A stretch of DNA of 35,742 nucleotides from Opitutaceae bacterium (GTDB lineage Bacteria > Verrucomicrobiota > Verrucomicrobiia > Opitutales > Opitutaceae). Every line of letters starts with the position of its first letter. The first letter of the stretch is position 1. The translations under genes were made by a program, and so were the position numbers. The notes under the pieces were generated by a model. That model was not told the DNA's origin. It saw only the letters and a program-made list of their open reading frames with translations, and ran no database searches. Location: the NCBI GenBank assembly GCA_014376585.1, contig JACMRG010000121.1, positions 1-35,742 on the forward strand, read 5' to 3'. Below, one piece after another: positions 21,301 to 35,742 of this stretch.

Positions 21301-21905
21301 AAGTCGTCGATCAGGTGAAGAGCACCGAGTATGACTCATGGTGGAACTACATGGGCATTCCCCTCGCTGATCGCGGGAAGAATCTCGATGAATCCACCTA
21401 TGATTTCTCGGGCCAGACGGTCGGCCGTCGCACCCTCGACAACCCCCGCAATCAGCTCTCGATTTGGAACAAATACGACTTTACGGATGGCGCATTAAAA
21501 GGCCTGGATGTCGGTCTCGGCGTTAATTTTAACGGCCCACGCCAGAGCGAAGCACTCCTCAACAACGGTGCCCGCACCACCGCCGGCGTGGAAAACATCC
21601 GCTATAAACCGCAATTTAAAGCCGACTACAAAATCAACCTCGGCCTCGGCTACCGCACTCAGCTGATACGCCGTAATTGGAACTTCCGGCTCAACGTGAA
21701 CAACGTGCTTAACGAGCAGAAGAAAATGGCGACGGGGTCCAGCTCGTTGTATGTTTCACCGGCAGATATCGCCGGGACCAATATCCTCGCGGGAAGTCTT
21801 GTTCCCTCCACCACGGCGGGCGCGCAGAAAATTACGGTGCCCGAACGCGTCGTGCGATATTTCGATCCCATCTCGTTTCGCTTCACCCTCAGCACGAGTT
21901 TCTGA
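18357..21905 (+). CDS. STN-domain TonB-dependent receptor/transducer (cassette B), unusually long
   Basis: 1182 residues. Signal peptide (about 13-33), STN domain (about 39-110, opening RSFAIPAGDAEATLEAFSDQ), a second signal-peptide-like segment starting at Met134, a candidate TonB box RLSEFRV (176-182), a plug (IKESLRYSAGI, QINIRGFNTRS, IARGPQALLYG, GGIVNITPK) and a barrel with terminal Phe. It is about 280 residues longer than TBDR-A. Part of the excess lies near residues 800-940, rich in Asn/Ala/Thr (ALDAAANDANNLTALQNATT), probably a large extracellular loop. The start has the C-rich leader AAAACCCCATCC before its ATG. A strong terminator follows. Confidence 0.92.
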   Translation: MFTLLRQCFRPLGLRPALLLILCMGGPCFCLSGAEPVRRSFAIPAGDAEATLEAFSDQAGVQIVYLLGDMRGEKTNPVQGVFAIRTALDRLIGNTALRVVVDGKTQAFVIQRSRSRPASAELPKNPNPTPPPPMKKSLTTRLAAVLAAVTASVLTAQPEPATSAPTDAAKPGDAIRLSEFRVDTSKDRGYLATNATTGTRLNMSIKEIPLPIEVITREFIDDIGAVDIKESLRYSAGIVQDTVTTSNSFTFSPSGSGNANSINRDSVQINIRGFNTRSFLRNGFRQDTVTDVVNIDRQEIARGPQALLYGVAALGGIVNITPKYPRNTQRTTGRFAIGSEDFYRAELYNTGPILKSRPNGDRSLNYGIGFVYQNQSSADDFDDRRRILMTPSLDFRPFKNTNIFVDVEYGQFRTEGNGFKDINDANAGNIINPFGLRTREDISVYNETKTVARDRFGKGRFFRWSGGDTFQKNEYFSGTVEVTQKIFDGLTAIVGGNYSDSLVTNRGLDSQGIATANTASSAIVPTGLGIWTNVGANPTNAAQNYWKTVNYQWNDARTHKLIKQFRAELTYELNLWGNKQVILLGRQEQTVAQINRSTAQVTSNITGGSNRSYKAFDDLSYIADRGEQTRIFRETPFWEWNTGEYATYQGKWWENKITIIGGLRWNRYMVRTYDNTFVKADATQPDSNVANWVKPAAPDPGSLTSAAGQTPVINGYRFANIPQKDTSPTAGVSFALTKAVSLYAVTAGGIYPNTGQRDGAASPFQAEKTKSKEVGVKFDVWKDKRGRDRISATVAGFQIDRENAIYNLFWAPQPRSNNQATLRAGFTANAPVSGTGLNAYTVTNSAFTTFQTANPVTYLVPVTYVAAVDLASPRVTGAPQANNLILVDYASLGSAATDPLRRALDAAANDANNLTALQNATTGNGAGNLNANNGYALNRNSDTSYNDQTKGVDMQIYLNLTDHLTTVFTYTHLYQGVTGGFKVVDQVKSTEYDSWWNYMGIPLADRGKNLDESTYDFSGQTVGRRTLDNPRNQLSIWNKYDFTDGALKGLDVGLGVNFNGPRQSEALLNNGARTTAGVENIRYKPQFKADYKINLGLGYRTQLIRRNWNFRLNVNNVLNEQKKMATGSSSLYVSPADIAGTNILAGSLVPSTTAGAQKITVPERVVRYFDPISFRFTLSTSF
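18756..18824 (+). other. Internal in-frame ATG with a second signal-peptide-like segment in TBDR-B
   Basis: Residues 134-156 are MKKSLTTR followed by LAAVLAAVTASVLTA, an excellent Sec signal peptide with a T-A-Q cleavage-like end. The ATG follows ACGCCACCCCCGCCC, the same kind of C-rich leader seen at gene starts in this window. The linker just before it is Pro/Asn-rich (PKNPNPTPPPP), as expected if a former untranslated leader is being read through. Confidence 0.65.
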
Positions 21906-21965: not shown

Positions 21966-22265
21966 ATGCCCGGCCGCCGCCACGTGAAAAGCGACCACGG
22001 GTCCAAAGACGCGCCTGAAAATCGCATCTTGTCGTAGCGCAACGCGCGAGCCCTTCGTTCGCGGTTAGATGTTGTAGCCACAAAAGCTTCACGGCACCAG
22101 CCACGGAAAAAACAGGATTTTATTTTTGGGTCGCGACCAATTACGAACGCTTAATCCTGCGGAAGCGGGCGGATGCCTTCCCGTGAGCGCAGTGCTGTCG
22201 GCATCACGCGTTCGTTCCATCTTTACCCCGATTTACACCAACCTAGCGCGCATCACCCCACCACC
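21966..22265. promoter_or_regulatory. Probable promoter/operator region of the fourth receptor gene
   Basis: 300 bp without a credible gene, with lower GC than its flanks. It holds a perfect 10-bp palindrome GGTCGCGACC (22129-22138) directly followed by ATTACGAACGCTTAAT (22140-22155), which has ATTA/TAAT ends around a CG-containing core and could be an operator. An A/T-rich stretch precedes it (22105-22127). No clear -35/-10 pair was identified. The gene start is preceded by a C-rich leader (ATCACCCCACCACC). Confidence 0.35.
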
Positions 22266-25200
22266 ATGTTAAAACTTCCGCCCGCCTGCCTAGCCGCCTC
22301 GCTTGGCCTTCTCGCCGCCTCAACCCTCCTCGCGCAAACCAACCCGGCCCCGGTCGCACCCGCATCCCAAGTCGATTCTGTCGCCATTCGCAGCGACTCC
22401 ACCGGTGCCATCACCGGCCGCGTCTTCAACCCCGCCACCGGTGAATATATCCGCAACGCCCAGATCCGCATCGTCGAGACCGGCGTCACCGCCATCTCCG
22501 AAAACGAAGGTGCGTTCCGCTTTTCTTCAGTCCCCGCCGGCCGCGTCACCCTCGTCGTCACCTACACCGGCTACCGCTCCGTCACCTCCACGGTCGACGT
22601 CGCCGCCGGCAGCGCCGCGACGAAAAATTTTGACCTCATCAGCACGCTCCAGCCCACCGCCACTGCCGCCGCGGACGGCACCGTGAAACTCGAAGCCTTC
22701 ACCGTGAACAGCGAGCGCGAGGGCAGCGCCAAAGCCATCATGGATCAGCGCCGGTCCATGAACGTCACCAACACCGTCGCCTCCGACGCCTTCGGCGACA
22801 ATGCCGAGGGCAACATCGGCGAATTCCTCCGCAACATGCCGGGCGTCGAACTCGACATTGCCTACGGCGAGGTTCGCAACGTGCGCCTCCGCGGCCTCAG
22901 CTCCGAATACACCTCCGTCACCGTCGATGGCGTCTCCCTCGCCAGCGCCGACGCCAACGCCGGCGCCGCCGGCAACGCCCGCGCGTTCACTTTCGAAAGC
23001 GCCTCCCTCAACAGCGTCGAGGCCATCGAAGTTTCCAAGACCGTCAGCGCCGACGTCGACGCCAATTCCCCCGCGGGCACCATCAACCTTAAGACCAAGC
23101 GCGCCTTCGACCGCGCCGGCCGCCGCGTCACCTGGCAGGCCAACGTGGTCGCTCACTCCGAAGAATTTAACCTCAATAAAAGCCGCGGCCCCGATGATTC
23201 CGGCCGTTCCCATAAATTCCGCCCGGGCGGCATCTTCGAATACTCCGATATCTTCCTCACCCGCCGGCTCGGCGTCGTTTTCAACATCAGTGAATCCAAC
23301 GTCTATCAGGAGACCCTAGTCTCCACGTTAACCTACAACCGCACCACGACTCCCACCGATTCCCGTCCCGAGGTTCTCACCGCCCTCAGCTTCCAACACG
23401 CCCCGCGCTTCAACAAACGCTTCGCGACCACCCTCACCACCGATTTCAAGGTCACCAAGTCCCTCGCCCTCTCTCTCGGCCTCATCTACAATTACACCGA
23501 CCTCTGGACTCCCCAGCGCACCGTCACGTTCAACACCGGCGGACGCGCCTCCGTCGTCGGCGATCTCTACACGGATTTCACCACCACCACCGGAGCCACC
23601 GTCGTCTCCAATCCCGTCGCCGTCTCCAAGCTCGGCGAGTCCCTTACTATCCTGCCGAAGTTCGACTACAAAACTCCAAAATTCGATCTCGAAGGCAAAG
23701 TCGCCTACTCCGACGCCACCAGCTGGTATGATCCGCTCGTCCGCCGCCACGCCATCCGCGACGCCAACAGCCCCACCGCCACCGGCGTCAACTACCGCGC
23801 CACGCGCTCCTCCGCCCAGGACACCGATTGGAAATTCACCCAAATCTCCGGGCCCGACCTCGCCGACGGTGCCAGCTTCAGCAGCCCCGCCGTCAGTATT
23901 AACGACGGCCGTTTCTCCCGCTCGGTTTTTGTCAGCGGCGAATTGAACGCCACCCTCCGCACTCGCTTCCTCCGCCCCATCGTTTGGAAAACCGGCTTCA
24001 AGGACCGCTACGAACTCCGCAAATTTGAAGACGATCAGTTGTCCAAACGCGCCGATTACTTCGGCAGTGCCACCGGCACCACCCCCGTCAACCCCGGCGC
24101 CTGGGCCAACTACGCCTCCGCTTACCCCTACGATTTCGGCATCGCCAACGGCAACATCTCCTCTCTCTCGGGCCGCAACATCTTCATGCCCGACCTGGAG
24201 CGCATTGCCCGCCTCTACGACGCCCAACCCACCGCGTTCCGCCAGAACCTTCCTCCCGGCAATTACTACACCGCCTTCATCGCCAACAAAAAACGCTACG
24301 AGGAAGAAATCCGCTCCGGCTACGCCATGGCCGACACCGTCTGGGGCCGCTTAAAATTCCGCGCCGGCCTCCGCTGGGAAGAGACCCACACCGACTCGAC
24401 GGAATTCGATGTGCGCACGCCCGTCGAGGTGCGCACCGCCGGTTACACCGTCGTCAACGGCCGAGCCACGACCATCCCCGGCCTCGACTACCAATATTTC
24501 TCGCAGCCCAAAATCCATCGCACCGGCAAATACCATAATTTTTTCCCCAGCAGCTCCGTCAAACTGCTGATCACCGAAAATCTTAACCTCCACCTCGGCT
24601 ACAGCAGCACCATCAAGCGACCCACCTATCGTGACCTCGCCGGCGTCTGGTCCATCAACGACACCGCCCAAACCGTCACCGCGCCCAACCCCAACCTGAA
24701 ACCCGAAACCTCCCAAAACTACGCCGCCCGCTTCGCCTATTATTTCGAGCCCGTCGGCCAGCTCAGCGTCAGCCTCTTCCAAAATCAGGTGAAAGACCTG
24801 CACGTCACCAAGACCATCTCGCCGCAGGAGTTCGGCTACAACGGCGACGACGATCTTTCCAGCTACCTGTTCGTGACCACGGGCAACAACGTGAACCGCG
24901 TCCAGATCCGTGGCATGGAAATCGAATACAGCCAGGCGCTCTCGTTTCTTCCCGGCGTCTTCAAACGCCTCAACGTCCGCGCCGCCTACACCCGCAACTA
25001 CGCCGAGATTATCACGGCCAACCTCGCCCCGCACCAGCTCAGCGGCGGGCTCAGCTACTCCCTCGGCCGTTTCAGCACCAACGTGAACGCCACATGGTCC
25101 GACAACTTTCCCTTGAGCAACACCGGCCTCACCTATCGCCGCCACCGCACCAATCTCGACGCCGGCGCCGGCTGGCGTCTCTCCAAAAATCTCACCCTCA

Positions 25201-25331
25201 GCGCCAACGTCCGCAATCTTCTCAACACGCCCTACATCAACATGCAGGCCTTCGCCCCCAGCGCCCCCGTCTGGACTCGCAGCGAGATCACCGGCCTCTC
25301 CTGGACCTTCGCCATCAAAGGCACCTATTAA
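22266..25331 (+). CDS. TonB-dependent receptor with carboxypeptidase-regulatory-like N-terminal domain
   Basis: 1021 residues from the ATG at 22266, where the signal peptide begins (LAASLGLLAASTLLAQ). Residues about 47-124 form a carboxypeptidase-regulatory-like beta-sandwich (GAITGRVFNPATGEYIRNAQ, FRFSSVPAGRVTLVVTYTGY). A candidate TonB box KLEAFTV (141-147) follows, then a plug (IGEFLRNMPGVELD, VRLRGLSSEYTSVTVDGVSL, GTINLKTKR) of the Caulobacter-type glycan receptor class, and a barrel ending in Tyr. It has no STN domain and therefore should not signal through FecR. It is followed by two FAD oxidoreductases on the same strand, 55 and 28 bp apart, suggesting an uptake-and-oxidation operon. 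Ligand unknown. Confidence 0.92.
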   Translation: MLKLPPACLAASLGLLAASTLLAQTNPAPVAPASQVDSVAIRSDSTGAITGRVFNPATGEYIRNAQIRIVETGVTAISENEGAFRFSSVPAGRVTLVVTYTGYRSVTSTVDVAAGSAATKNFDLISTLQPTATAAADGTVKLEAFTVNSEREGSAKAIMDQRRSMNVTNTVASDAFGDNAEGNIGEFLRNMPGVELDIAYGEVRNVRLRGLSSEYTSVTVDGVSLASADANAGAAGNARAFTFESASLNSVEAIEVSKTVSADVDANSPAGTINLKTKRAFDRAGRRVTWQANVVAHSEEFNLNKSRGPDDSGRSHKFRPGGIFEYSDIFLTRRLGVVFNISESNVYQETLVSTLTYNRTTTPTDSRPEVLTALSFQHAPRFNKRFATTLTTDFKVTKSLALSLGLIYNYTDLWTPQRTVTFNTGGRASVVGDLYTDFTTTTGATVVSNPVAVSKLGESLTILPKFDYKTPKFDLEGKVAYSDATSWYDPLVRRHAIRDANSPTATGVNYRATRSSAQDTDWKFTQISGPDLADGASFSSPAVSINDGRFSRSVFVSGELNATLRTRFLRPIVWKTGFKDRYELRKFEDDQLSKRADYFGSATGTTPVNPGAWANYASAYPYDFGIANGNISSLSGRNIFMPDLERIARLYDAQPTAFRQNLPPGNYYTAFIANKKRYEEEIRSGYAMADTVWGRLKFRAGLRWEETHTDSTEFDVRTPVEVRTAGYTVVNGRATTIPGLDYQYFSQPKIHRTGKYHNFFPSSSVKLLITENLNLHLGYSSTIKRPTYRDLAGVWSINDTAQTVTAPNPNLKPETSQNYAARFAYYFEPVGQLSVSLFQNQVKDLHVTKTISPQEFGYNGDDDLSSYLFVTTGNNVNRVQIRGMEIEYSQALSFLPGVFKRLNVRAAYTRNYAEIITANLAPHQLSGGLSYSLGRFSTNVNATWSDNFPLSNTGLTYRRHRTNLDAGAGWRLSKNLTLSANVRNLLNTPYINMQAFAPSAPVWTRSEITGLSWTFAIKGTY

Positions 25332-25340
25332 CTTCTAAAA

Positions 25341-25364
25341 GTAGGGCGGACTTTAGTCCGCCTT
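25341..25364 (+). repeat. GTAGGG...GTCCGCC hairpin repeat, copy 1
   Basis: Seven perfect base pairs, GGCGGAC / GTCCGCC (25345-25351 and 25356-25362) with a TTTA loop, extended by a G-U and an A-T pair. It starts 10 bp after the receptor stop codon. Two more copies follow the next two genes. Possible transcript-end or mRNA-stabilising hairpin. Confidence 0.7.
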
Positions 25365-25386
25365 CACCGCCCCAGCCCTACCCGCC

Positions 25387-27066
25387 ATGCCCCTCCGCCG
25401 CCTCCTCGCCACCCTCCTCTTAGCCACACCCCTCACCGTTCGCGCCGCCGCCGCCGATAGCTACGACCTCGTGATCTACGGCGGCACCGCCGGCGCGGTC
25501 GCGGCCGCCGTGCAGGCCAAAAAAATGGGCAAGACGGCGGTCATCGTCAGCCCCGATAAACACCTCGGCGGCCTCTCCGCCGGCGGACTCGGCTTCACCG
25601 ACACCGGCGACAAATCCGTCATCGGCGGCGTCGCCCGCGATTTCTACCACCGCATCTGGCAGCACTACGACGTGGACGCCGCGTGGCGGCAGCAGAAGAA
25701 ATCCGAATACGGTAACAAGGGCCAGGGCACGCCCGCCATCGACGGCGTCAACCGCACCATGTGGATCTTCGAGCCCCACGCCGCCGAAAAAGTCTTCGAG
25801 GACTACGTCCGCGAATTTAAAATTCCCGTTCACCGCGACGAGTGGCTCGACCGCGCGAAAGGCGTCAAAAAATCCGGCGCACGCATCACTGCGATCACCA
25901 CGCTCAGTGGCAAAACCTACACCGGTAAGATGTTTCTCGATGCCACTTACGAAGGCGACCTCATGGCCGCCGCCGGGATCGACTATCACGTCGGCCGCGA
26001 ATCTCGCGCCCAATACGGCGAAGAACTCAACGGCGTGCAGACCGGTGTCCTCCACCACCGCCACCACTTCGGCGTGTTGCAGGGAAAGGTCAGCCCCTAC
26101 GTCGTCCCCGGCGATCCGAAGAGCGGTGTTCTCCCCCGCACCAATCCCGAGCACCCCGGCGAGTTCGGCGCCGCCGATAAAAAACTCCAAGCCTACTGCT
26201 TCCGCATGTGCCTCACCGACGACCCGTCGAACCGCGTGCCCTTCGCCAAACCCGCCGGCTACGACTCCGCCCAATACGAACTCCTCCTCCGCATCTACGC
26301 CGCCGGCTGGACCGAGACGTTCAACAAGTTCGACCCCATCCCGAACCACAAGACCGACACCAATAACCACGGCCCCTTCAGCACCGACAACATCGGCATG
26401 AATTACGATTATCCCGATGCCTCCTACGCGCGCCGTCGCGAAATTATCCGCGAGCACGAGACCTACCAGCAGGGCTGGCTCTACTTCATCGCCAACGACC
26501 CCCGCGTCCCCGCCGAGGTCCGCGAAAAAATATCCCGCTGGGGCCTCGCCAAAGACGAGTTCAAGGACAACGGCAACTGGCCGCACCAGATCTACGTCCG
26601 CGAAGCCCGCCGCTTGATCGGCTCCTACGTGATGACGGAAAACGAACTCGTGAAACGCCGCCCCACCCCTGAATCGGTTGGCATGGGCAGCTACGCGATG
26701 GATTCCCACAACGTCCAACGCTACATCACCCCCGAAGGCTACGTGCAGAACGAAGGCGACATCGGCGTCTCCACCCAAGGCCCCTACGCCATCGCGTATG
26801 GCTCACTCACGCCGAAGAAAGCCCAGTGCGAAAACCTCCTCGTGCCCGTCTGCGTTTCGAGCACGCACATCGCCTACGGCTCGATCCGCATGGAACCCGT
26901 TTTCATGATCCTCGGCCAGTCCGCCGCCACCGCCGCCGTCATGGCGATCGACGCAAAAATCGCCGTGCAGGACGTCCCCTACGCCGCCCTCCAAGCCCGC
27001 CTCATCGCCGACGGCCAGATTTTAGAAACGCCGCCAAAGCCCGCCGCTCCCGCTCCAAAAAAGTAG
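25387..27066 (+). CDS. Exported FAD-dependent oxidoreductase, tandem paralogue 1
   Basis: 559 residues. The N-terminus MPLRRLLATLLLATPLTVRA is a signal peptide, with an Arg-Arg pair that could allow Tat export. A Rossmann-type FAD motif follows (YDLVIYGGTAGAVAAAVQAK, then GKTAVIVSPDKHLGGLSAGG). FLDATYEGDLMAAAGIDYHV and the late GQSAATAAVMAI segment are typical of the FAD_oxidored family found in glycan loci of Planctomycetes and Verrucomicrobia. The substrate of this family is generally not known. It is paralogous to the next gene. Its TAG stop lies inside a degenerate hairpin repeat. Confidence 0.85.
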   Translation: MPLRRLLATLLLATPLTVRAAAADSYDLVIYGGTAGAVAAAVQAKKMGKTAVIVSPDKHLGGLSAGGLGFTDTGDKSVIGGVARDFYHRIWQHYDVDAAWRQQKKSEYGNKGQGTPAIDGVNRTMWIFEPHAAEKVFEDYVREFKIPVHRDEWLDRAKGVKKSGARITAITTLSGKTYTGKMFLDATYEGDLMAAAGIDYHVGRESRAQYGEELNGVQTGVLHHRHHFGVLQGKVSPYVVPGDPKSGVLPRTNPEHPGEFGAADKKLQAYCFRMCLTDDPSNRVPFAKPAGYDSAQYELLLRIYAAGWTETFNKFDPIPNHKTDTNNHGPFSTDNIGMNYDYPDASYARRREIIREHETYQQGWLYFIANDPRVPAEVREKISRWGLAKDEFKDNGNWPHQIYVREARRLIGSYVMTENELVKRRPTPESVGMGSYAMDSHNVQRYITPEGYVQNEGDIGVSTQGPYAIAYGSLTPKKAQCENLLVPVCVSSTHIAYGSIRMEPVFMILGQSAATAAVMAIDAKIAVQDVPYAALQARLIADGQILETPPKPAAPAPKK

Positions 27067-27084
27067 GGTAAACTTGCGTCCGCC
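27063..27084 (+). repeat. GTAGGG...GTCCGCC repeat, degenerate copy 2
   Basis: GTAGGGTAAACTTGCGTCCG and the next two bases align with the other two copies with about five substitutions, most in the left stem arm, so the hairpin is destroyed. The TAG of the first oxidoreductase is part of it. The next gene's ATG is only 11 bp further. Confidence 0.5.
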
Positions 27085-27094
27085 TCCGCGCCCC

Positions 27095-28765
27095 ATGCTC
27101 CCCCAAATCCGTCTCCCCCTCGCGCTCGGCGTCGCCGCCTTACTCGCCACCGCGATCACGGCTCCACTCCACGCTGACGCCGACGCCGCGGCCGCGCCCG
27201 CCTCCGCCCCCACGACTCCCAACCCTGGCCTGCGCTACCACTACCCGTTGCCCGCCGCTGCCACGCCGCAGATCTTGCGCGTCGACATCTGCGTCTACGG
27301 TGGCACGCCGGGCGGCGTGGGCGCGGCGGTGCAGGCGCGCCGCATGGGCAAGACTTCCGCGCTCGCCGTCTTCCGCCGCCACGTCGGCGGCCTCACCGCG
27401 GCGGGGCTCACCGCGGTCGATCTCGGCAAGAAAGAATCCATCGGCGGCATGGCCGAAGAATTTCTCAACCGCATGGGCAAATGGAGCGGCTTCCGCGCCG
27501 CCGACGCCGAGCAGACCATGCGCGCGATGCTCACCGAGGCCGATGTGCCCGTGTGGTTCGAACACCGCCTCGCCCGCGTCGAGAAATCCGACAACCGCAT
27601 CCGCGCCCTCGTCTTCGAAAACGGCGACCGCATCGAAGCCGCCATGTTTATCGACGCCACCTACGAGGGCGATCTCCTCGCTCGCGCCGGCGTGTCGTTC
27701 CACGTCGGCCGCGAGGGCAACGCCGCCTATGGCGAGGCCTTCAACGGCTATTTCATCGCCGACAAACATCAGTTCCGTTTCCCCGTCGACCCCTACCGCA
27801 CACCCGGCGATCCGCAGAGCGGACTTCTCCCCGGCATCTCCGCCGGGCCGCCACGCACCGAGGGCTCGGGCGATAAATGGGTCCAAGCTTACAACTTTCG
27901 CATGTGGCTCACCACCGCCGCCGCCGGCCGCGCGTTTCCCCAGCCCGCCGGTTACAATCGCGCCGACTACGCGCTCCTCGAACGCTATCTCACCTCGGCC
28001 CCCGCCGGCTTCGTGTGGGATTGGACCTACCGCAACGGCCCCGTGAAATTGAACCTCGGCGACTGCAACAACGCCGGCCCCGTCTCCACCGATTTCATCG
28101 GCGGCAGCAACCGCTGGCCCGAGGCCGATTACGCCGAACGCGAAAAAATCTTCCAGGCCCACGTCACTTATCAGCAGGGCATGATGTGGTTCCTCGCCCA
28201 CGATCCCGCCGTGCCCGAAAAACTCCGCGCTCACGTCAACACCTTCGGCCTCCCGGGCGATCAGTTCGAAGAAACCGCCGGCTGGCCGCACGAGCTCTAC
28301 GTGCGCGAAGGCCGCCGCTTGGTTTCCGATTACGTCATGACGGAACACGACTGTAAGGGCAAAGTCGTCGCCGCAGACAGCGTCGGCCTCGCCAGCTACA
28401 CCATGGATTCGCACCACACTTCACGCGTCGTCGTCGACGGCGTCGTCAAAGCCGAGGGCAACGTCGAGAAATCCACGCCGCAGCCGTTCCCTGTGAGTTA
28501 CCGCGCGATGATCCCCCGCGCCCGCGAGTGCACCAACCTCCTCGTGCCCGTCGCAGTTTCATCCTCGCACATCGCTTTCGGCAGCACCCGCATGGAGCCC
28601 GTCTTCATGCTTCTCGGCCAGAGCGCCGCCACTGCCGCCTCCCTTGCCATCGACGCAAAAACCTCCGTGCAAGCCGTCCCCTATCCCACCCTCCGCGCCC
28701 GCCTCCTCCAAGACCGCCAACGCCTCGTCTGGACCGCACCCGCCCCTGCGCCTGTTACAAAGTAG
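27095..28765 (+). CDS. Exported FAD-dependent oxidoreductase, tandem paralogue 2
   Basis: 556 residues from the ATG at 27095, which follows a CGCGCCCC leader; the frame extends to a TTG at 27074. The signal peptide is LPLALGVAALLATAITAPLHA, with no twin arginine. The FAD motif is VDICVYGGTPGGVGAAVQAR, followed by HVGGLTAAGLTAVDLGKKES. Shared family blocks are DATYEGDLLARAGVSFHVGR, NNAGPVSTDFIGG and GQSAATAASLAIDAKTSVQA. It is colinear with the preceding gene over its whole length, so the pair arose by tandem duplication, with divergence in the N-terminal region. Its TAG stop is part of hairpin repeat copy 3. Confidence 0.85.
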   Translation: MLPQIRLPLALGVAALLATAITAPLHADADAAAAPASAPTTPNPGLRYHYPLPAAATPQILRVDICVYGGTPGGVGAAVQARRMGKTSALAVFRRHVGGLTAAGLTAVDLGKKESIGGMAEEFLNRMGKWSGFRAADAEQTMRAMLTEADVPVWFEHRLARVEKSDNRIRALVFENGDRIEAAMFIDATYEGDLLARAGVSFHVGREGNAAYGEAFNGYFIADKHQFRFPVDPYRTPGDPQSGLLPGISAGPPRTEGSGDKWVQAYNFRMWLTTAAAGRAFPQPAGYNRADYALLERYLTSAPAGFVWDWTYRNGPVKLNLGDCNNAGPVSTDFIGGSNRWPEADYAEREKIFQAHVTYQQGMMWFLAHDPAVPEKLRAHVNTFGLPGDQFEETAGWPHELYVREGRRLVSDYVMTEHDCKGKVVAADSVGLASYTMDSHHTSRVVVDGVVKAEGNVEKSTPQPFPVSYRAMIPRARECTNLLVPVAVSSSHIAFGSTRMEPVFMLLGQSAATAASLAIDAKTSVQAVPYPTLRARLLQDRQRLVWTAPAPAPVTK

Positions 28766-28822: not shown

Positions 28823-29989
28823 TCACTTCCCCTTCGGCCCAAGATTAAAAAAGATCCGCACGTTCTTCGTCTGCCGACCGGCGGCGACGATATCGAGGCG
28901 GCCATCACCGTCGAGATCGGCTAGTTTCAAATCCTCGACCGCGATTTCCGGCCCGCTGATTTCAAACGTCTGCCACGCCGCGCCCGCTGTCGCCCCAGGC
29001 GCATAGAGCCGGATACCCGGCGCCCCACGCGGATTCATCGCGCGCCAGCCCGCGACGATCTGCGGCGAACCCGTCCCGAGCAGATCCCCGACCGCCAGTG
29101 CGTGGCCATCCTTCAACGTCTCATCGAGAGCCTGCCGCGACCACAGCCCGCCGCCAGCCACCGGTTCCGTGTAAACCGCCACCGCGACCCCGTGCATCGG
29201 CTCGATCGTCGCAATGAAGCGGCGACCATCCGGCAACCGGCCGTCGCGGACTTCACCCGCCGGCTGGTCGGTAAACTGCCGGCGCTGCCATGCGCCCGTG
29301 CTCGCCCCAAAAAACCACACGCCCTCCTTCCCCGCCGCGATCAGTTCTTCCTCGGGATCGCCGTCCCAGTTGATCGACTGCAGATTGTGCGAGGCGTGCA
29401 TGAAATCGCCCACCACGCTGGTCTTCCATGGTTGCCGCGGATCCGCCGGCACCGTGTAGGCCAGCAACCGCGCACCAGCGCCTTCGCTGTTTTTATTGCC
29501 CCGCCCATGCAGCGGCTGCACCAGCAGTTCAAATACGCCCGCCCGATTCCGCAGCCACTGCATGCGATGCACGGTCGGCTCATGCGCGAGCCGCACCGGC
29601 TCCCATCGTTGCGTGCGATCTTTCGGCGCGATGAGAAAAAATACCGCGCCGCTGTTTACCGTGTCGCCCGGATTCCACTCGGCGCCCACCGCCACCTCGC
29701 AACGTCCGTCACCATCGATATCCGCCGCCGCGATGCACACGTTGTCTTTGTCGGTGAGATTCTCGGCGATGATGAACTTTTCCCACGTGGGGTTCCGATA
29801 CCAGACGACCTGGCGTTTGTCAGCGAGGAGCACGTCCGGCTTTCCGTCGCCATCCACATCGGCGACCGCGAGGCCATAGCCGATTTCGATCTTGGTATCG
29901 ATATCCACCGCACGAAACCGCGGTGCCGGAATCTCCGCTGCACGACCGACGGACCAGATGAGCAACAACACGGCGCAAAGGATTTTCAT
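28823..29989 (-). CDS. Exported FG-GAP/VCBS-repeat protein
   Basis: 388 residues from the ATG at 29989. The signal peptide is MKILCAVLLLIWSVGRA, with cleavage near AAE. Three calcium-binding DxDGDG loops are visible: DVDGDGKPDVLLA (44-56), DIDGDGRCEVAVG (90-102) and DLDGDGRLDIVAA near the C-terminus (358-370). This pattern marks integrin-like beta-propeller repeats, seen in surface or periplasmic proteins that bind glycans or other proteins. No catalytic motif was recognised. It is convergent with the oxidoreductase pair and divergent from cassette C, which starts 202 bp away. Confidence 0.8.
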   Translation of the reverse strand: MKILCAVLLLIWSVGRAAEIPAPRFRAVDIDTKIEIGYGLAVADVDGDGKPDVLLADKRQVVWYRNPTWEKFIIAENLTDKDNVCIAAADIDGDGRCEVAVGAEWNPGDTVNSGAVFFLIAPKDRTQRWEPVRLAHEPTVHRMQWLRNRAGVFELLVQPLHGRGNKNSEGAGARLLAYTVPADPRQPWKTSVVGDFMHASHNLQSINWDGDPEEELIAAGKEGVWFFGASTGAWQRRQFTDQPAGEVRDGRLPDGRRFIATIEPMHGVAVAVYTEPVAGGGLWSRQALDETLKDGHALAVGDLLGTGSPQIVAGWRAMNPRGAPGIRLYAPGATAGAAWQTFEISGPEIAVEDLKLADLDGDGRLDIVAAGRQTKNVRIFFNLGPKGK

Positions 29990-30191
29990 CGGCAGGAGAG
30001 GGAGTGCGCCCAACCTGGTTCACCCCCGCGCCGGCTCCAACCCTTTTCCGCCTCCCCTTTAAACGCGGCCGCTCAGCGGATGGGTTAGTCTTTTTTCGAA
30101 AAGTTTTGGCCGTCGGGATGGCACTCGACAGTCCTCGCCCGCCTTCAAATCGTTCCCCCCGCACGCCGCGTCCTCCGGCGCGATTTACCCC

Positions 30192-30746
30192 ATGCCCCCG
30201 ACCGATCAGGCCCGCTGGTTTTCCGCGCACGTCCAACCCTGCGAACCCGCGCTGCGCGCCTATCTGCAAAAACGCTTTCCCGCGCTGCCCGACCACGACG
30301 ACCTCCTCCAAGAAACCTACGTGCGCACCCTCCGCGCCTACGAAGGCGGCCGCGTCACCCACGCCCGGGCCTTCCTCTTCACCACCGCGCGCAACGCCGC
30401 CATCGACCTCTTTCGCCGCCGCCGCGCCCAGATCCACGAGGAAATTTCGGAAACCACCGCCCTGATGATCATCGACGAAAACCCCGGCCTCGCCGAATCG
30501 CAGGAGCGCGAACAACGCCTCGATCTCCTCCTCGAGGCCATCCTCGCCCTCCCCGAGCGCTGCCGCCAGGTGATGATGCTCCGCCACCTCGACGGCCTCG
30601 CCTACAAAGAGATCGCCGTGCGCCTCGGCATCTCGCCCGAGACGGTGAAAGTGCACATGATCAAGGGCGTCAAAGACTGCACCCGTTTCTTCCACCAACG
30701 CGGCCTCCTCGACGCCGGTCCGGGCACGGCGCGCCTCGTCTCATGA
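30192..30746 (+). CDS. FecI-type ECF RNA polymerase sigma factor (cassette C)
   Basis: 184 residues with ECF region 2 (DDLLQETYVRTLRAYEGG, FLFTTARNAAIDLFRRR) and region 4 (LPERCRQVMMLRHLDGLAYK, then IAVRLGISPETVKVHMIKGV). The ATG at 30192 follows a TTTACCCC leader. Its stop overlaps the FecR start (ATGA), so the two are translationally coupled. It is the first gene of the sigma, FecR, receptor and sulfatase run, which makes it the probable inducer of a sulfated-glycan uptake operon. Confidence 0.93.
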   Translation: MPPTDQARWFSAHVQPCEPALRAYLQKRFPALPDHDDLLQETYVRTLRAYEGGRVTHARAFLFTTARNAAIDLFRRRRAQIHEEISETTALMIIDENPGLAESQEREQRLDLLLEAILALPERCRQVMMLRHLDGLAYKEIAVRLGISPETVKVHMIKGVKDCTRFFHQRGLLDAGPGTARLVS

Positions 30747-31765
30747 ATCCGTCGCCCGCCGATTTTTCCGCCTACGACGACGCGATCGAGACCGCCGCCG
30801 CCGAATGGCTCATCGCACGCGAGGAAGGCTTTGCCCCCGGCCGCGCCGCGGAATTCGCCGCCTGGCGCGCCGCCGATCCGCAGCACGACGAGGCCGCCCT
30901 GCGCACCGAGCGCGCCCTCGACCTCATCGGCGAAATGCCCGCCCTCCGCGCCCCGCTCCAGGCCCGGCTCGCCGTAGAAACCAAGATTACCCGCCCCGCG
31001 TTCTTTCACCCGCCCGTCTGGACCGCCGGCCTCGCCGCCGCCTTCGCGCTCGCCGCCGTGGTCGGGTGGTTCCTCCCGTCCCGCGACGCCGCTACCCGCC
31101 ACTACACCACCGCCGCCACCCGCCAGCAGCAGATCGCACTGGTGGATGGCTCGATCGTAAATCTCAACGTCAGCACCGACGTCCAAGTCGCGCTCACGCC
31201 TGCCGCCCGCCGCGTCACCCTCACCGCCGGCGAGGCCCACTTCGCCGTCGCACACGACACCGCCCGCCCCTTCATCGTCACCGCCGGCGGCGTCTCGGTG
31301 CGCGCCGTCGGCACCGCCTTCAGCGTGCGCCTGGGCGACCAAGGCGTCGAAGTCCTCGTCACCGAAGGCAAGGTCGAGGTCGCCCGCGACGACCCCAATT
31401 CCGCCCCGGCGACCGCGTTGCCCGCCGAGCACCCGCTCCTCGTCGCCGGCGAACGCACGCTTATCCCCCGCACCGCCGCCCCCGCGATCGAACGCGTCTC
31501 GGCCGATGCCCTGCAAATCGCCGTCCGCTGGCACAGCCCGGTCATGACGTTTTCCGATCTCCCGCTGCGCGACGCCATCACCCTGTTTAATCGCCGCAAC
31601 GCGACCCAGCTCATCCTCGCCGATCCCGCCCTCGCCGGACGCAAAATCGGCGGCACCTTCGCCGTGGACCAGGTGGAGGCTTTCGTGCGCCTGCTCGCGG
31701 AAGACGGCGAGATCACCGTCGAGCGTCGCACCGCCACCGAGATCGTCCTGCGCCGCGCGCCGTGA
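30743..31765 (+). CDS. FecR-like anti-sigma factor (cassette C)
   Basis: 340 residues. FecR_N at about 15-60 (AAAEWLIAREEGFAPGRAAE, WRAADPQHDEAALRTER), one membrane segment at about 92-111 (VWTAGLAAAFALAAVVGWFL), a periplasmic FecR domain (ALVDGSIVNLNVST, RRVTLTAGEAHFAVAHDTAR, AVGTAFSVRLGDQGVEVLVT) and an STN-like C-terminus (LRDAITLFNRRNATQLILAD to the end). It overlaps the sigma gene by 4 bp. It would keep sigma-C inactive until TBDR-C engages its ligand. Confidence 0.92.
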   Translation: MNPSPADFSAYDDAIETAAAEWLIAREEGFAPGRAAEFAAWRAADPQHDEAALRTERALDLIGEMPALRAPLQARLAVETKITRPAFFHPPVWTAGLAAAFALAAVVGWFLPSRDAATRHYTTAATRQQQIALVDGSIVNLNVSTDVQVALTPAARRVTLTAGEAHFAVAHDTARPFIVTAGGVSVRAVGTAFSVRLGDQGVEVLVTEGKVEVARDDPNSAPATALPAEHPLLVAGERTLIPRTAAPAIERVSADALQIAVRWHSPVMTFSDLPLRDAITLFNRRNATQLILADPALAGRKIGGTFAVDQVEAFVRLLAEDGEITVERRTATEIVLRRAP

Positions 31766-31869
31766 AGCGGAGCGAGCACGCGGCGCGCTGCGCCCAGCAC
31801 GTCGGCTTCATCGCCGCACTAACCCATTTCGTGCGCCGGTGCGTTCTAGGAGTAGCTCGGCTTTCGCTC

Positions 31870-34416
31870 ATGACGCATCGTCTCGTTACCCCGCCCCGTC
31901 TCGTCGCCACGGCTTTCTGCTGTGCGATGTCCGTGTCGGTCGTCTCGGGCGCGGCGGCCGTCGAGCAGAAGCGGAGCTACAACCTCCCCTCCGGCGACGC
32001 CGCCGCCACCCTCAACCAATTCGCCGGAGCCTCCGGCCAGCAGATCATTTTTATGATGGATAAGGTGAGTGGCCAGCGGACCAATGCCGTGTCCGGCGAC
32101 TACGCCGCGCGCGACGCGCTGGACCGCATGTTGGCGGGCACCGGCCTGAGCGCCGCGCGCGATCCCGCGACCGGCGCCTTCGTCGTCAGCCGCAAACGCA
32201 CCGCAAGCGACGCGCCTCAGCGCCAGGGGAAGGTGGGACCCGTTTCCGATCCGCAACCCAAACTCAGAACCACACCCATGAAATCCCCCCGCACCTTGTT
32301 CGCCGCCGTCGCCGGCTGGCTCGCCCTCGGCTCCATTGCCGACGCCCAAACTTCCACTGGCACCGCGGAAACCCCCGTCGTGCTTTCGCCGTTCACCGTC
32401 CAGTCTGGCGAGAACACCTACACCGTCGCCAACGCCATGACCGGCACGCGCATCAACACGCCTCTCGTCGACGCGCCGTTTGCGGTGCAGGTCGTCACCG
32501 ACCAATTCCTCCGCGATGTCGGCGCCGGCAACATGACCGAGGCCCTGCGCTACGTGAGCAGCGTCCGCTCCAGCGCCAACAATTCGGAGAACTTCTCCAT
32601 CCGCGGCTTCAACACCGGCGCGCCGCTGCGCAACTATTTCTCCGTGCTAAACGCCACCCGCACCCGCACCGAAAACGCCGAATACGACCGCATCGAGGTC
32701 CTCAAAGGCCCGTCCTCCCTGCTCTATGGCATCGGCGGCCCCGGCGGCCGCATCAACACGGTTACCAAACAGCCGCTCGCGGTCACCCGCCACTCCGTCG
32801 AGCTCGAGACCGGCAGCTACGACCACTACCGCGCCGCCATCGACCTCACCGGTCCACTCGCGGCCAAGCCCCTCGGCGGCGAGTTGCTCTACCGCGTGAT
32901 CGCGGTGCACCAGGACAGTGAGGGCTTTCGCGACTTCGAATTTACCAAGCGCGATTTTCTCAACACTCAGCTCCTGTGGCGCAATTCGCGGCTCAGCCTG
33001 CGCGCCGAATTCCGCTTTCTCCGCCAAGACGAAAACGAGACGTTTATCCTGATGCCGATCGATCCCGGCACCGGCCGCATCGCCTCGCCCGAACGCTCCT
33101 ACAACACCTCGGGACCGAACACCTACGCCAACTTCCGCGAATACAACGGCTACACCGAAGCCCTGTGGACCATCAACGACCGCTGGTCCCTCCGCAACGG
33201 CTCCACTTACGGCGAGCAATACTACGACGCCCTTCGCCGCGTCGGCGCCGGACTCGTCGCGCCGGCGTTTACTCACGTCCGCAACTCAGGCAACTGGCAC
33301 AGCGACCGCACCCAGGGCTTCGCCTCCCAGACCGATCTCACGGGTAAAATTATGACCGGCCTCGGCCCACTCACCCTCGTGGCCGGCCATATCCACGAGG
33401 CTAACCGCGGCCGCCTCCAACGCCGTGACAACAGCAACCTGCCCTCCGCGCTCTTCCCCGTCTTCGACAAACCCGCCCGCGTTTACTCCGTCGGCAATCT
33501 CTCCGACTACGTCCTCGCCCAATACGATGACTCCACGGGTAACGCTTCCCGCCTCTACGGCATGGCCCAGCTCGCACTCTTTCGCGAACGCCTGCTCCTC
33601 CTCGTCGGCGCCGGCCGCATCAGCTCTGAAAACCGACTCGTCAACCGCGTGCCCGCTGCCGTCACGAACACCCTTACCGACATCACCAAAACCGTTCCCC
33701 AAGCCGGCCTCTCCTACAAACTCGCCGCCGGTGCCAGCGTCTACGCCATGTATGGCGAAAGCTTCGCCCCTAATTCCCGCTTTCCCGGCCAGCCAGAGCA
33801 GGGCAAATCCTACGAACTGGGTCTGAAATTTGCCGGCGAGCGCGTGAGCGGCACGCTGGCCCTCTTCGATACCAAGCGGGAAAATATTCCCGCCAACGTC
33901 TTCGACTTCGCCACCAACACCACGGTCTTCGGCGTGGGCGGCAAAGAGTCGTCCCGCGGCCTCGAAGCGGATTTCTATTTCAACCCCGCGAAGCGCGTCG
34001 ATGTCATCGCCTCCTACGCTTACCTCGACACCGAGGTCGTCACTTCCGACAACGAGATCACCCGTCCCGACCGCAAGGGCACACCCCTCGCCAACGCCCC
34101 GGGTCATCAGGGCAAACTCTGGGTGAAACACACCGCCGCCAGGTCGGTGTTCGGTTTCGACCAACCCTGGGCCGGCCTCGGCCTCGTCTATGTCGGCTCC
34201 ATGCGGCCCGACAGCGATCCCAGCCGCTACAAACTCATCGCCCCCTCCTACACCCGCGTCGACTTCGCGCTCGGCGGCACCCGCAAACTCGGCGAAAAAT
34301 TCCGGCTCGACGGCCGTATCGGCGTCGAAAACGTTTTCAACCGGGACTACATCGACAAACAGATCACCCGCGGCGCCCCAACCACGCTGAAGGTTTCGGC
34401 GGCGTTAAGATTCTAA
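31870..34416 (+). CDS. STN-domain TonB-dependent receptor/transducer (cassette C)
   Basis: 848 residues from the ATG at 31870, which starts a good signal peptide (LVATAFCCAMSVSVVSGAAA). The frame also opens at a GTG at 31762 that overlaps the FecR stop (GTGA), but the extra 36 residues are not signal-like. AGGAG lies 17 bp before the ATG, rather far. In order: STN domain (about 36-108), a second signal-peptide-like segment at Met137, a candidate TonB box VLSPFTV (171-177), a plug (MTEALRYVSSV, FSIRGFNTGA, IEVLKGPSSLLYGIGGPGG) and a barrel with terminal Phe. The sulfatase starts 36 bp downstream, suggesting uptake of a sulfated or related ligand; the plug itself looks siderophore-type. Confidence 0.9.
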   Translation: MTHRLVTPPRLVATAFCCAMSVSVVSGAAAVEQKRSYNLPSGDAAATLNQFAGASGQQIIFMMDKVSGQRTNAVSGDYAARDALDRMLAGTGLSAARDPATGAFVVSRKRTASDAPQRQGKVGPVSDPQPKLRTTPMKSPRTLFAAVAGWLALGSIADAQTSTGTAETPVVLSPFTVQSGENTYTVANAMTGTRINTPLVDAPFAVQVVTDQFLRDVGAGNMTEALRYVSSVRSSANNSENFSIRGFNTGAPLRNYFSVLNATRTRTENAEYDRIEVLKGPSSLLYGIGGPGGRINTVTKQPLAVTRHSVELETGSYDHYRAAIDLTGPLAAKPLGGELLYRVIAVHQDSEGFRDFEFTKRDFLNTQLLWRNSRLSLRAEFRFLRQDENETFILMPIDPGTGRIASPERSYNTSGPNTYANFREYNGYTEALWTINDRWSLRNGSTYGEQYYDALRRVGAGLVAPAFTHVRNSGNWHSDRTQGFASQTDLTGKIMTGLGPLTLVAGHIHEANRGRLQRRDNSNLPSALFPVFDKPARVYSVGNLSDYVLAQYDDSTGNASRLYGMAQLALFRERLLLLVGAGRISSENRLVNRVPAAVTNTLTDITKTVPQAGLSYKLAAGASVYAMYGESFAPNSRFPGQPEQGKSYELGLKFAGERVSGTLALFDTKRENIPANVFDFATNTTVFGVGGKESSRGLEADFYFNPAKRVDVIASYAYLDTEVVTSDNEITRPDRKGTPLANAPGHQGKLWVKHTAARSVFGFDQPWAGLGLVYVGSMRPDSDPSRYKLIAPSYTRVDFALGGTRKLGEKFRLDGRIGVENVFNRDYIDKQITRGAPTTLKVSAALRF
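32278..32346 (+). other. Internal in-frame ATG with a second signal-peptide-like segment in TBDR-C
   Basis: Residues 137-159 are MKSPR followed by TLFAAVAGWLALGSIADA with an ADA-Q cleavage-like end. The ATG follows AGAACCACACCC, again a C-rich leader. The position relative to STN and TonB box matches the two other receptors within three residues. Confidence 0.65.
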
Positions 34417-34452
34417 AGGTTAAAGAAGACCCCCCAACCCCATCCACCCGCC

Positions 34453-35742
34453 ATGAACTTCATCCCGTGCGTGCACTTCGTTCTCTTCGCGATTCTCGGT
34501 CTGGGCGCAGCGCAAGGGGCCACGCCGGCGCGGCCAAATCTCGTCGTCATCCTCGCCGACGACCTCGGCTACGGCGACGTCTCCTGCTACAATCCTGCGT
34601 CAAAAATCGCCACGCCCCGCATCGACCGACTCGCCCGTGAAGGGATGCGTTTCACGGACGCGCACACTGCCTCCGCCGTCTGCACCCCCACGCGTTACGC
34701 GCTCCTCACCGGCCGCTATCCGTGGCGCACCCGCCTTCAGAACGGTGTGCTCGGCGGCTTCTCCCCTCCCCTCATAGCGCCGGGTCGCCTGACGCTCGCC
34801 TCCCTCCTCCAACAGCAGGGCTACGCCACCACCGCCGTCGGCAAATGGCACCTCGGCATGACGTGGCCCACCCGTGACGGTGCCCGTTTCTCCGACCGCA
34901 TTCAGGGTCGGGAAAACGACGCGGCCGAGCACATGAGCCAGGTGGATTGGCAGCGGCGCATCCCCGACGGGCCGCTTGCCTTCGGCTTCGATTCTTTTTT
35001 CGGCATCGCTGCGTCGCTCGACATGCCGCCCTACGGTTTCATCCGCGACGATCGCATCGCCCCCGCACCTACCGTGGAAAAAAAATGGATCCGCACGGGC
35101 CCGGCCACCGCCGGCTTCGAGGCCGAAGACGTCCTCCCTGCATTAACCCGGAACGCCGTCGACTGGCTCGGTCAGCGGGCCAAAGAATCCAAGCCGTTTC
35201 TCCTCTATCTCGCGCTGACCTCGCCGCACACACCCATTCTGCCAACCGCTGAGTTTCGGGGAAAAAGTAATTTCACGGCCTACGGTGATTTCGTGATGGC
35301 GACCGACGATGCCGTTGGAAAAATCCTCGATGCCCTCGAGCGCAACGGCCTTGCGGAAAACACCCTGGTGATCGTGACCAGCGACAACGGCTGCTCGCCC
35401 GCCGCAAACACCCAGGAGTTGCTCGCCAAAGGGCACTTCCCCTCGGGCCCGTGGCGCGGCTTCAAAGCCGACATCTGGGAGGGAGGCCACCGGGTGCCGT
35501 TCGTCGCCCGCTGGCCTGCGCGCATCCGCGCCGGTTCCACCAGCGACCAGACCATGACGCTCGGAGATATCGTCGCCACCGCCGCTGAGTTCACCGGCAC
35601 CGCGTTACCCGACGATGGCGCGGAAGACAGCGTCAGCCTCCTGCCCGCCCTGCTCGGCAAACCCGCCACCGCCTCCCCACGGGCCGCAACCGTCCAACAC
35701 TCGATCGACGGGAAATTCGCGGTGCGGCAGGGCGACTGGAAA
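34453..35742 (+). CDS. Exported sulfatase (type I, formylglycine-dependent), truncated by the window end
   Basis: The frame is open from the ATG at 34453 to the last base, 430 codons with no stop. Signal peptide at 1-22 (VLFAILGLGAAQGA). RPNLVVILADDLGYGD supplies the metal-binding Asp36/Asp37. The C-T-P-T-R motif at 77-81 (SAVCTPTRYALLTGRYPWRT) carries Cys77, which is converted to formylglycine. GKWHLG, TSPHTP and VTSDNG are further active-site motifs. It belongs to the arylsulfatase A-like class acting on carbohydrate sulfate esters; the exact substrate is not readable. The start has a C-rich leader (CAACCCCATCCACCCGCC). It lies 36 bp after TBDR-C and is probably in the same operon. Confidence 0.93.
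   Translation, partial: MNFIPCVHFVLFAILGLGAAQGATPARPNLVVILADDLGYGDVSCYNPASKIATPRIDRLAREGMRFTDAHTASAVCTPTRYALLTGRYPWRTRLQNGVLGGFSPPLIAPGRLTLASLLQQQGYATTAVGKWHLGMTWPTRDGARFSDRIQGRENDAAEHMSQVDWQRRIPDGPLAFGFDSFFGIAASLDMPPYGFIRDDRIAPAPTVEKKWIRTGPATAGFEAEDVLPALTRNAVDWLGQRAKESKPFLLYLALTSPHTPILPTAEFRGKSNFTAYGDFVMATDDAVGKILDALERNGLAENTLVIVTSDNGCSPAANTQELLAKGHFPSGPWRGFKADIWEGGHRVPFVARWPARIRAGSTSDQTMTLGDIVATAAEFTGTALPDDGAEDSVSLLPALLGKPATASPRAATVQHSIDGKFAVRQGDWK

Follow-up and report, generated by a model that had tools for sequence, protein, structure and literature searches.

The right-hand end of a contig from an Opitutaceae bacterium raises the question of how a single receptor gene could serve both signalling and import. 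The gene encodes TBDR-C, a TonB-dependent receptor (TBDR), and lies between the genes for an extracytoplasmic function (ECF) sigma factor (sigma-C) with its anti-sigma factor (FecR-C) and a sulfatase gene cut off by the contig end. We analyzed the whole stretch of 35,742 nucleotides (nt), hereafter the window, which is the complete contig G000:C389 of a 5.24-Mb genome in 435 contigs. An earlier note on this DNA had named all four genes and placed them in a probable Verrucomicrobiota; all four have Pfam matches, and the named records matching TBDR-C are Opitutaceae or Verrucomicrobia metagenome-assembled genomes, in agreement with both claims. With an ECF sigma factor, an adjoining FecR-family anti-sigma factor and a receptor bearing an N-terminal STN signalling domain, the locus is probably a Fec-type cell-surface signalling unit, induced by a ligand and carrying the sulfatase as cargo. 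Its central feature is a second signal peptide inside TBDR-C, opened by an in-frame ATG.

30192–30746, + strand: sigma-C, FecI-like ECF sigma factor, 184 residues (Pfam Sigma70_r2, 47.3 bits; r4_2, 56.9 bits)
30743–31765, + strand: FecR-C, FecR-like membrane anti-sigma factor, 340 residues (PF04773, 69.8 bits)
31870–34416, + strand: TBDR-C, long product, 848 residues, with signal peptide 1, STN, linker, signal peptide 2, TonB box/plug and barrel (Pfam STN 34.7, Plug 60.4, barrel 130.8 bits; AlphaFold barrel)
32041–32160, + strand: STN signalling domain of TBDR-C (Pfam match)
32278–32346, + strand: internal ATG and second signal peptide MKSPRTLFAAVAGWLALGSIADA, then Q; a hydrophobic linker segment common to 91 of 129 STN open reading frames (ORFs) in a biased sample
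32278–34416, + strand: predicted short product, an STN-less receptor with its own signal peptide (internal start signature)
34417–34452, no strand: 36-bp gap between TBDR-C and the sulfatase, with no terminator-like site and no TAAC-N18-CGT[TC] site
34453–35742, + strand: S1-type sulfatase, truncated by the contig end, 430 residues visible (PF00884, 185.5 bits; CTPTR)

Sigma-C contains both ECF sigma regions 2 and 4, and the STN of TBDR-C passes the PF07660 cut-off (34.7 vs 28.4 bits). The DUF4880 domain of FecR-C falls slightly under its Pfam cut-off (22.7 vs 25), and the formylglycine-type motif (C-x-P-x-R) of the sulfatase is CTPTR at frame residues 77–81. The probable start of TBDR-C is ATG 31870; GTG 31762 was rejected as a start because the additional N-terminus would be encoded by a promoter-like stretch that relatives conserve.

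A second signal peptide with its own start codon

TBDR-C consists, in order, of signal peptide 1, STN, linker, MKSPRTLFAAVAGWLALGSIADAQ, TonB box and plug. The same layout is found in TBDR-A, TBDR-B and the receptors on contigs C12, C229 and C398, and is lacking in those on C315, C52 and C152. TBDR-A and TBDR-B lie in the same window (13757–16471 and 18357–21905), each adjoined by its own sigma/FecR pair and each with a second signal peptide. An AlphaFold model of TBDR-C (mean predicted local distance difference test score 69.3) has a fair barrel, with low confidence in STN and in a short helix that it places at the second signal peptide; being weak in the STN part, it does not settle the link between STN and receptor.

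We searched 252 genomes of the family, taken as Opitutaceae, with a profile of STN, linker and second-signal-peptide segment, which matched at E ≤ 1e-12 in 161 genomes and 35 of 49 genera. Together with earlier searches, it supplied 129 distinct open frames with an STN, drawn from 74 genomes. Linker hydrophobicity is bimodal in the 76 frames with a plug in reach, with 65 at 1.25 or above and 11 at 0.82 or below. An automatic rule called a second signal peptide in 97 of the 129 frames, of which six proved false on reading and were dropped (L119, L127, L141, L145, L228, L232), leaving 91. Some of these precede receptors of the carboxypeptidase-regulatory type, besides those of the siderophore type. 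In a sample of the phylum, the profile matched 20 of 337 genomes, every one in the same family; outside it, most STN matches listed for that sample have the frame length expected of secretins. A literature search, which covered few subscription papers, found no report of an internal signal peptide in an STN receptor.

The second signal peptide begins with a start codon in 88 of the 91 genes, which are related sequences: 74 have ATG, 13 GTG and one TTG. All 13 valines at this position are encoded by GTG, whereas over 65 of these frames GTG accounts for 823 of 2309 valine codons; the 13 come from few lineages. The 51 nt around the internal start have a mean folding energy of −1.95 kcal/mol and are less structured than the mean of the other windows of the same gene in 87 of 88 cases. 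Because the linker amino acids alone favour open RNA, each real sequence was compared with random synonymous versions of itself. The real sequence was the more open one in 87 of 88 genes, with a mean difference of +4.5 kcal/mol; in the set thinned at 70% nucleotide identity this held for 49 of 50. At other in-frame Met codons, taken as a control, only 253 of 549 sites were more open (mean −0.27), and in linkers without a signal peptide 14–20 of 37 positions were (means −2.0 to +0.24). The openness fades on either side of the internal start, to +0.4 at −30 codons and +1.2 at +30. At true first starts, where the coding half alone can be tested by synonymous versions, that half gave +1.61 kcal/mol (69/86), compared with +1.83 at the internal start (78/93, an uncurated set). 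In TBDR-C itself the site folds at −0.2 kcal/mol versus −6.7 for its synonymous versions, one of which in 500 was as open; for TBDR-A, none of 500 was. A kept start codon in open mRNA is as predicted by selection for initiation at the internal codon. Thus, one gene probably encodes, through internal translation initiation, both an STN-bearing transducer and a plain transporter, and we infer that both receptor products are made.

Several observations weigh against this reading. In three of the 91 genes (L073, L156, L204) the second signal peptide does not open with a start codon, and the openness of TBDR-B is weak, with 203 of 500 synonymous versions as open. The codons of a signal peptide might also be kept open for reasons besides initiation. 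Because the search profile itself contains the second signal peptide, the proportion of 91 in 129 does not estimate how common the element is; a plain STN search found the element, by reading, in 3 of 29 new loci (L126, L138, L146).

Promoter sites, transcription units and a shared cassette

Two promoter-like sites flank the sigma-C and FecR-C genes, one of them facing a gene on the opposite strand.

31820–31845, + strand: candidate sigma-C-type promoter of TBDR-C, −35 TAACCC (31820–31825) and −10 CGTT (31842–31845) (TAAC-N18-CGTT shape; same place in L247–L249)
30062–30087, − strand: divergent TAACCCAT-N14-CGTT site upstream of sigma-C, toward the FG-GAP gene (exact match; same place in L247, L248, L249 and the genome's own C229)
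28823–30013, − strand: secreted FG-GAP/AUDH-type propeller protein (PF13517, 67.6 bits; PF22301, 38.6 bits)

Across 127 regions upstream of STN-receptor genes of the family, TAAC and CGT[TC] stand 18 nt apart in 31 cases (11 CGTT, 20 CGTC), versus 0–2 cases at any other distance between 8 and 24; the regions are mutually related, and the 31 cases are not independent events. The strict TAACCCAT-N14-CGTT form occurs twice in the window, before TBDR-C (+) and before sigma-C (−), against a chance mean of 0.08 and no shuffle with two. In the whole 5.24-Mb genome, TAACCC-N16-CGTT occurs nine times and the pattern read backwards four times. The strict, AT-bearing form occurs three times, at the two window sites and beside a frame-broken sigma-C paralog on C229, and all three sites adjoin sigma-C-type genes. 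Three other Opitutaceae loci, L247, L248 and L249, contain orthologs of sigma-C and FecR-C together with both sites at matching positions. Sigma-C would be expected to act at the TAACCC-N16-CGTT site before TBDR-C. The divergent site, which possibly drives the FG-GAP gene, is conserved in five loci, and the DNA behind it is unconserved. If TAAC-N18-CGT[TC] is read as a promoter, it could be used to predict regulons of uncultured Opitutaceae.

Two further copies of these elements were seen. In L247 (7562–7587, −), a second sigma-C-like gene has a site with CGTC in place of CGTT, and the −10 variant may distinguish sigma groups. On contig C229 of the same genome (L056:10325–13287, −), a second sigma-C/FecR-C/TBDR copy has several broken frames and retains the divergent TAACCCAT-N14-CGTT site.

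TBDR-C and its relatives in L247, L248 and L249 differ sharply in how far their parts are conserved. Identity is 82–88% for sigma-C, 65–79% for FecR-C and 75–86% for signal peptide 1, STN and linker, and just 26–37% for the plug and barrel. The closest barrels to that of TBDR-C carry none of the cassette. The second signal peptide of TBDR-C looks like its counterparts in the cassette relatives and not like the signal peptides found in the barrel relatives. Because identity is high in the cassette and low in the barrel, and the second signal peptide is cassette-like, the sigma factor, FecR, promoter, STN and second signal peptide appear to have passed from receptor to receptor as one unit. A broader proposition, which we regard as evenly balanced, is that Opitutaceae possess a portable cassette (sigma, FecR, TAAC-N18-CGT[TC] promoter, STN and second signal peptide) that has been combined with many receptor genes unrelated to one another, each encoding an STN transducer and an import-only transporter by internal initiation; the two-form state proposed for cleavage of FoxA in Pseudomonas aeruginosa would thus be hard-wired in the gene.

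The explanation that we favour builds on what the computation displays directly, namely the genes, the conserved promoter site, the internal signal peptide and the start signature in the synonymous codons. Sigma-C and FecR-C would be produced from their own transcript. A ligand, probably a sulfated sugar, would arrive at TBDR-C in the outer membrane, and the periplasmic STN would signal to FecR-C. Sigma-C, once freed, would transcribe from the TAACCC-N16-CGTT promoter before TBDR-C, and the output would be more receptor and the sulfatase encoded behind it. Translation from ATG 31870 would yield the STN-bearing transducer, with its STN meeting FecR-C, and translation from ATG 32278, which opens a complete second signal peptide, a plain transporter that lacks STN and does not signal. 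Taken as a whole, this explanation, a Fec-type unit with two transcription units and a receptor gene with two in-frame starts, appears reasonably probable to us.

Other explanations can be set against each part. The earlier note took sigma-C through the sulfatase as one operon, and the four genes do share a strand, with a 4-nt overlap of sigma-C and FecR-C and no terminator-like site between the genes; the absence of one from the 36 bp before the sulfatase is as the note had described. The conserved ECF-type site between FecR-C and TBDR-C makes a single operon improbable, and because of that site we consider two units likely, sigma-FecR and receptor-sulfatase, as in E. coli fecIR/fecA; read-through from the former into the latter may add to expression. 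The second signal peptide could instead mark a place where the long protein is cut and STN set free, and a cleavage-like A-x-A-Q end is present in most of the 91 sequences. A signal peptide that follows an exported domain, however, has its positive end in the periplasm, on the wrong side for signal peptidase, and these rules of membrane topology make cleavage less likely. Cutting would also leave the kept start codons and the open mRNA unexplained. We therefore give little credence to such a cut, which would be a genetically built-in version of the STN cleavage of FoxA, where the available part of one report describes two forms in P. aeruginosa and a cut proposed as necessary for signalling (PMC11637429).

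It is similarly doubtful that the second signal peptide is an unused relic, left from an ancient event that fused an STN module with an already complete receptor gene. STN-less relatives do begin near the same point with a signal peptide of their own, as such a fusion would have it. Against it, 88 of 91 genes retain the start codon, which lies in open mRNA in 87 of 88, and the second signal peptide of TBDR-C, being of the cassette kind and not the barrel-relative kind, seems to have travelled with the cassette.

The sulfatase and the probable ligand

The neighbouring genes bear on the nature of the ligand. The five barrels nearest to that of TBDR-C (L246, 53% identity; L069, 51%; L082, 41%; L070, 41%; L086, 39%) have no STN match, and PF00884 genes adjoin all five. 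They amount to about three independent cases, as L246 and L250 (which contains L069) resemble one locus carried by related genomes, and a single sulfatase is the neighbour of two of the five. In L246 and L250 the receptor is divergent beside a sulfatase, with LacI and a sugar transporter of the major facilitator superfamily (MFS); L253 (L070) has an esterase, a sulfatase and an MFS gene nearby; and L251 (L086, L082) has the order TBDR-carboxylesterase-sulfatase-TBDR. Because the sulfatase lies 36 bp downstream and the five nearest barrels stand beside PF00884 genes, the ligand of TBDR-C is most likely a sulfated sugar. On C315 of the same genome the order sigma-FecR-TBDR-sulfatase is repeated, the receptor and the sulfatase being 67 bp apart; on C152, a TBDR, one more gene and then a sulfatase lie divergent from sigma-FecR. 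The genome has 13 FecR matches and 31 sulfatase matches in all, several of the latter being pieces of one gene. Among the genomes that contain the five nearest barrels, G040 has, by our reading of the match table, about 17 sulfatase genes and G095 about 4. The nearest solved relatives of the sulfatase are an N-acetylgalactosamine (GalNAc)-6-O-sulfatase (6s20, 4.1e-67) and S1_15A (9bas, 1.6e-61), with S1_15B among others, and the resemblance of the S1_15A/B and GalNAc-6-O-sulfatase chains is of low identity, from which specificity is not assignable.

A number of results speak against a sulfated ligand. Of the 29 best sulfatase relatives, only 2 have a TBDR immediately upstream, which rules out a TBDR-sulfatase pairing as a general rule. 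In the sigma-C ortholog loci L247–L249 no sulfatase lies directly behind the receptor; therefore, the cargo is not fixed. TBDR-C scores 217.6 bits in the TonB-siderophore model TIGR01783, slightly under the cut-off of 223.5. Its nearest solved chains by sequence (3qlb, 4.7e-36) are the enantio-pyochelin receptor, FpvA, FoxA/CntO and FhuA, and by predicted fold FoxA, the enantio-pyochelin receptor and FhuA. This near-threshold score and these siderophore receptors, nearest in both sequence and fold, favour an iron or siderophore uptake system with the sulfatase merely a neighbour. We consider that rather unlikely in view of the second sigma-FecR-TBDR-sulfatase run in the same genome and of the sulfatases, esterases, sugar MFS, LacI and GH1 genes around the five nearest barrels. 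The idea that a Fec-type pair controls a glycan locus thus held as far as a sigma/FecR/STN receptor set with sulfatase cargo and the C315 run go, with iron a less probable alternative to a glycan, given the closeness of TBDR-C to siderophore receptors. We favour a sulfated ligand, and the locus suggests that sulfated-sugar loci of Opitutaceae can be under Fec-type control.

A link to sialic acid had also been raised. The sialidase-like tail at the far end of the contig is real: frame 2 of bases 2–145 matches the C-terminal part of a sialidase on C242 of the same genome in 24 of 29 residues. It is followed by NanA-like, NanM-like and MFS genes that lie about 25–30 kb from the sulfatase locus and have no site in common with it. 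The proposed use of mucin or sialoglycans had position on one contig as its only support and did not stand; a 'sialoglycan locus' was rejected, as the sialic acid genes are at the opposite contig end and the sialidase-type matches of the genome are on other contigs. Elsewhere in the window, 22173–28765 contains a carboxypeptidase-regulatory-type TBDR (22173–25331) and a tandem pair of similar secreted oxidoreductase-like genes (25387–28765).

Comparison with known systems

The roughly 90 sampled receptor genes in which a further start and export signal has been kept after the signalling domain and ahead of the receptor part offer a natural test of signalling versus transport. In its main parts the locus is like E. 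coli FecI-FecR-FecA, with an ECF sigma factor, a membrane FecR and an STN-bearing receptor, and there, as far as the available text states, fecI and fecA each have a separate promoter (PMC9249621). The E. coli proteins are nonetheless distant, as the NCBIfam equivalog scores are far under cut-off (FecI, 69.9 of 260; FecR, 81.1 of 385), and the sulfatase cargo and the second signal peptide of the receptor set the Opitutaceae locus apart from E. coli Fec.

Bacteroides glycan loci are controlled, in the accessible portions of two reports, by anti-sigma factors that meet SusC-like receptors (PMC3878776; PMC10766802). Unlike those ECF-sigma/anti-sigma loci, the receptor here is of the siderophore type and not the SusC type, and SusD is unmatched in the four genes, which leaves no SusC/SusD pair. 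TBDRs adjoining carbohydrate genes, along with many sulfatases, have been described (PMC5615132); TBDR-C likewise stands beside a sulfatase, but the main text of that paper describes no control by a sigma factor or FecR.

The closest parallel to a receptor with two forms is FoxI-FoxR-FoxA of P. aeruginosa, likewise an STN receptor with an anti-sigma partner. From what is available of a 2024 study, FoxA has forms with and without the signalling domain, and cleavage was proposed as part of signalling (PMC11637429). The two forms were seen in FoxA and are predicted for TBDR-C; in FoxA the short form is attributed to protease cleavage, whereas in TBDR-C it would come from an internal start.

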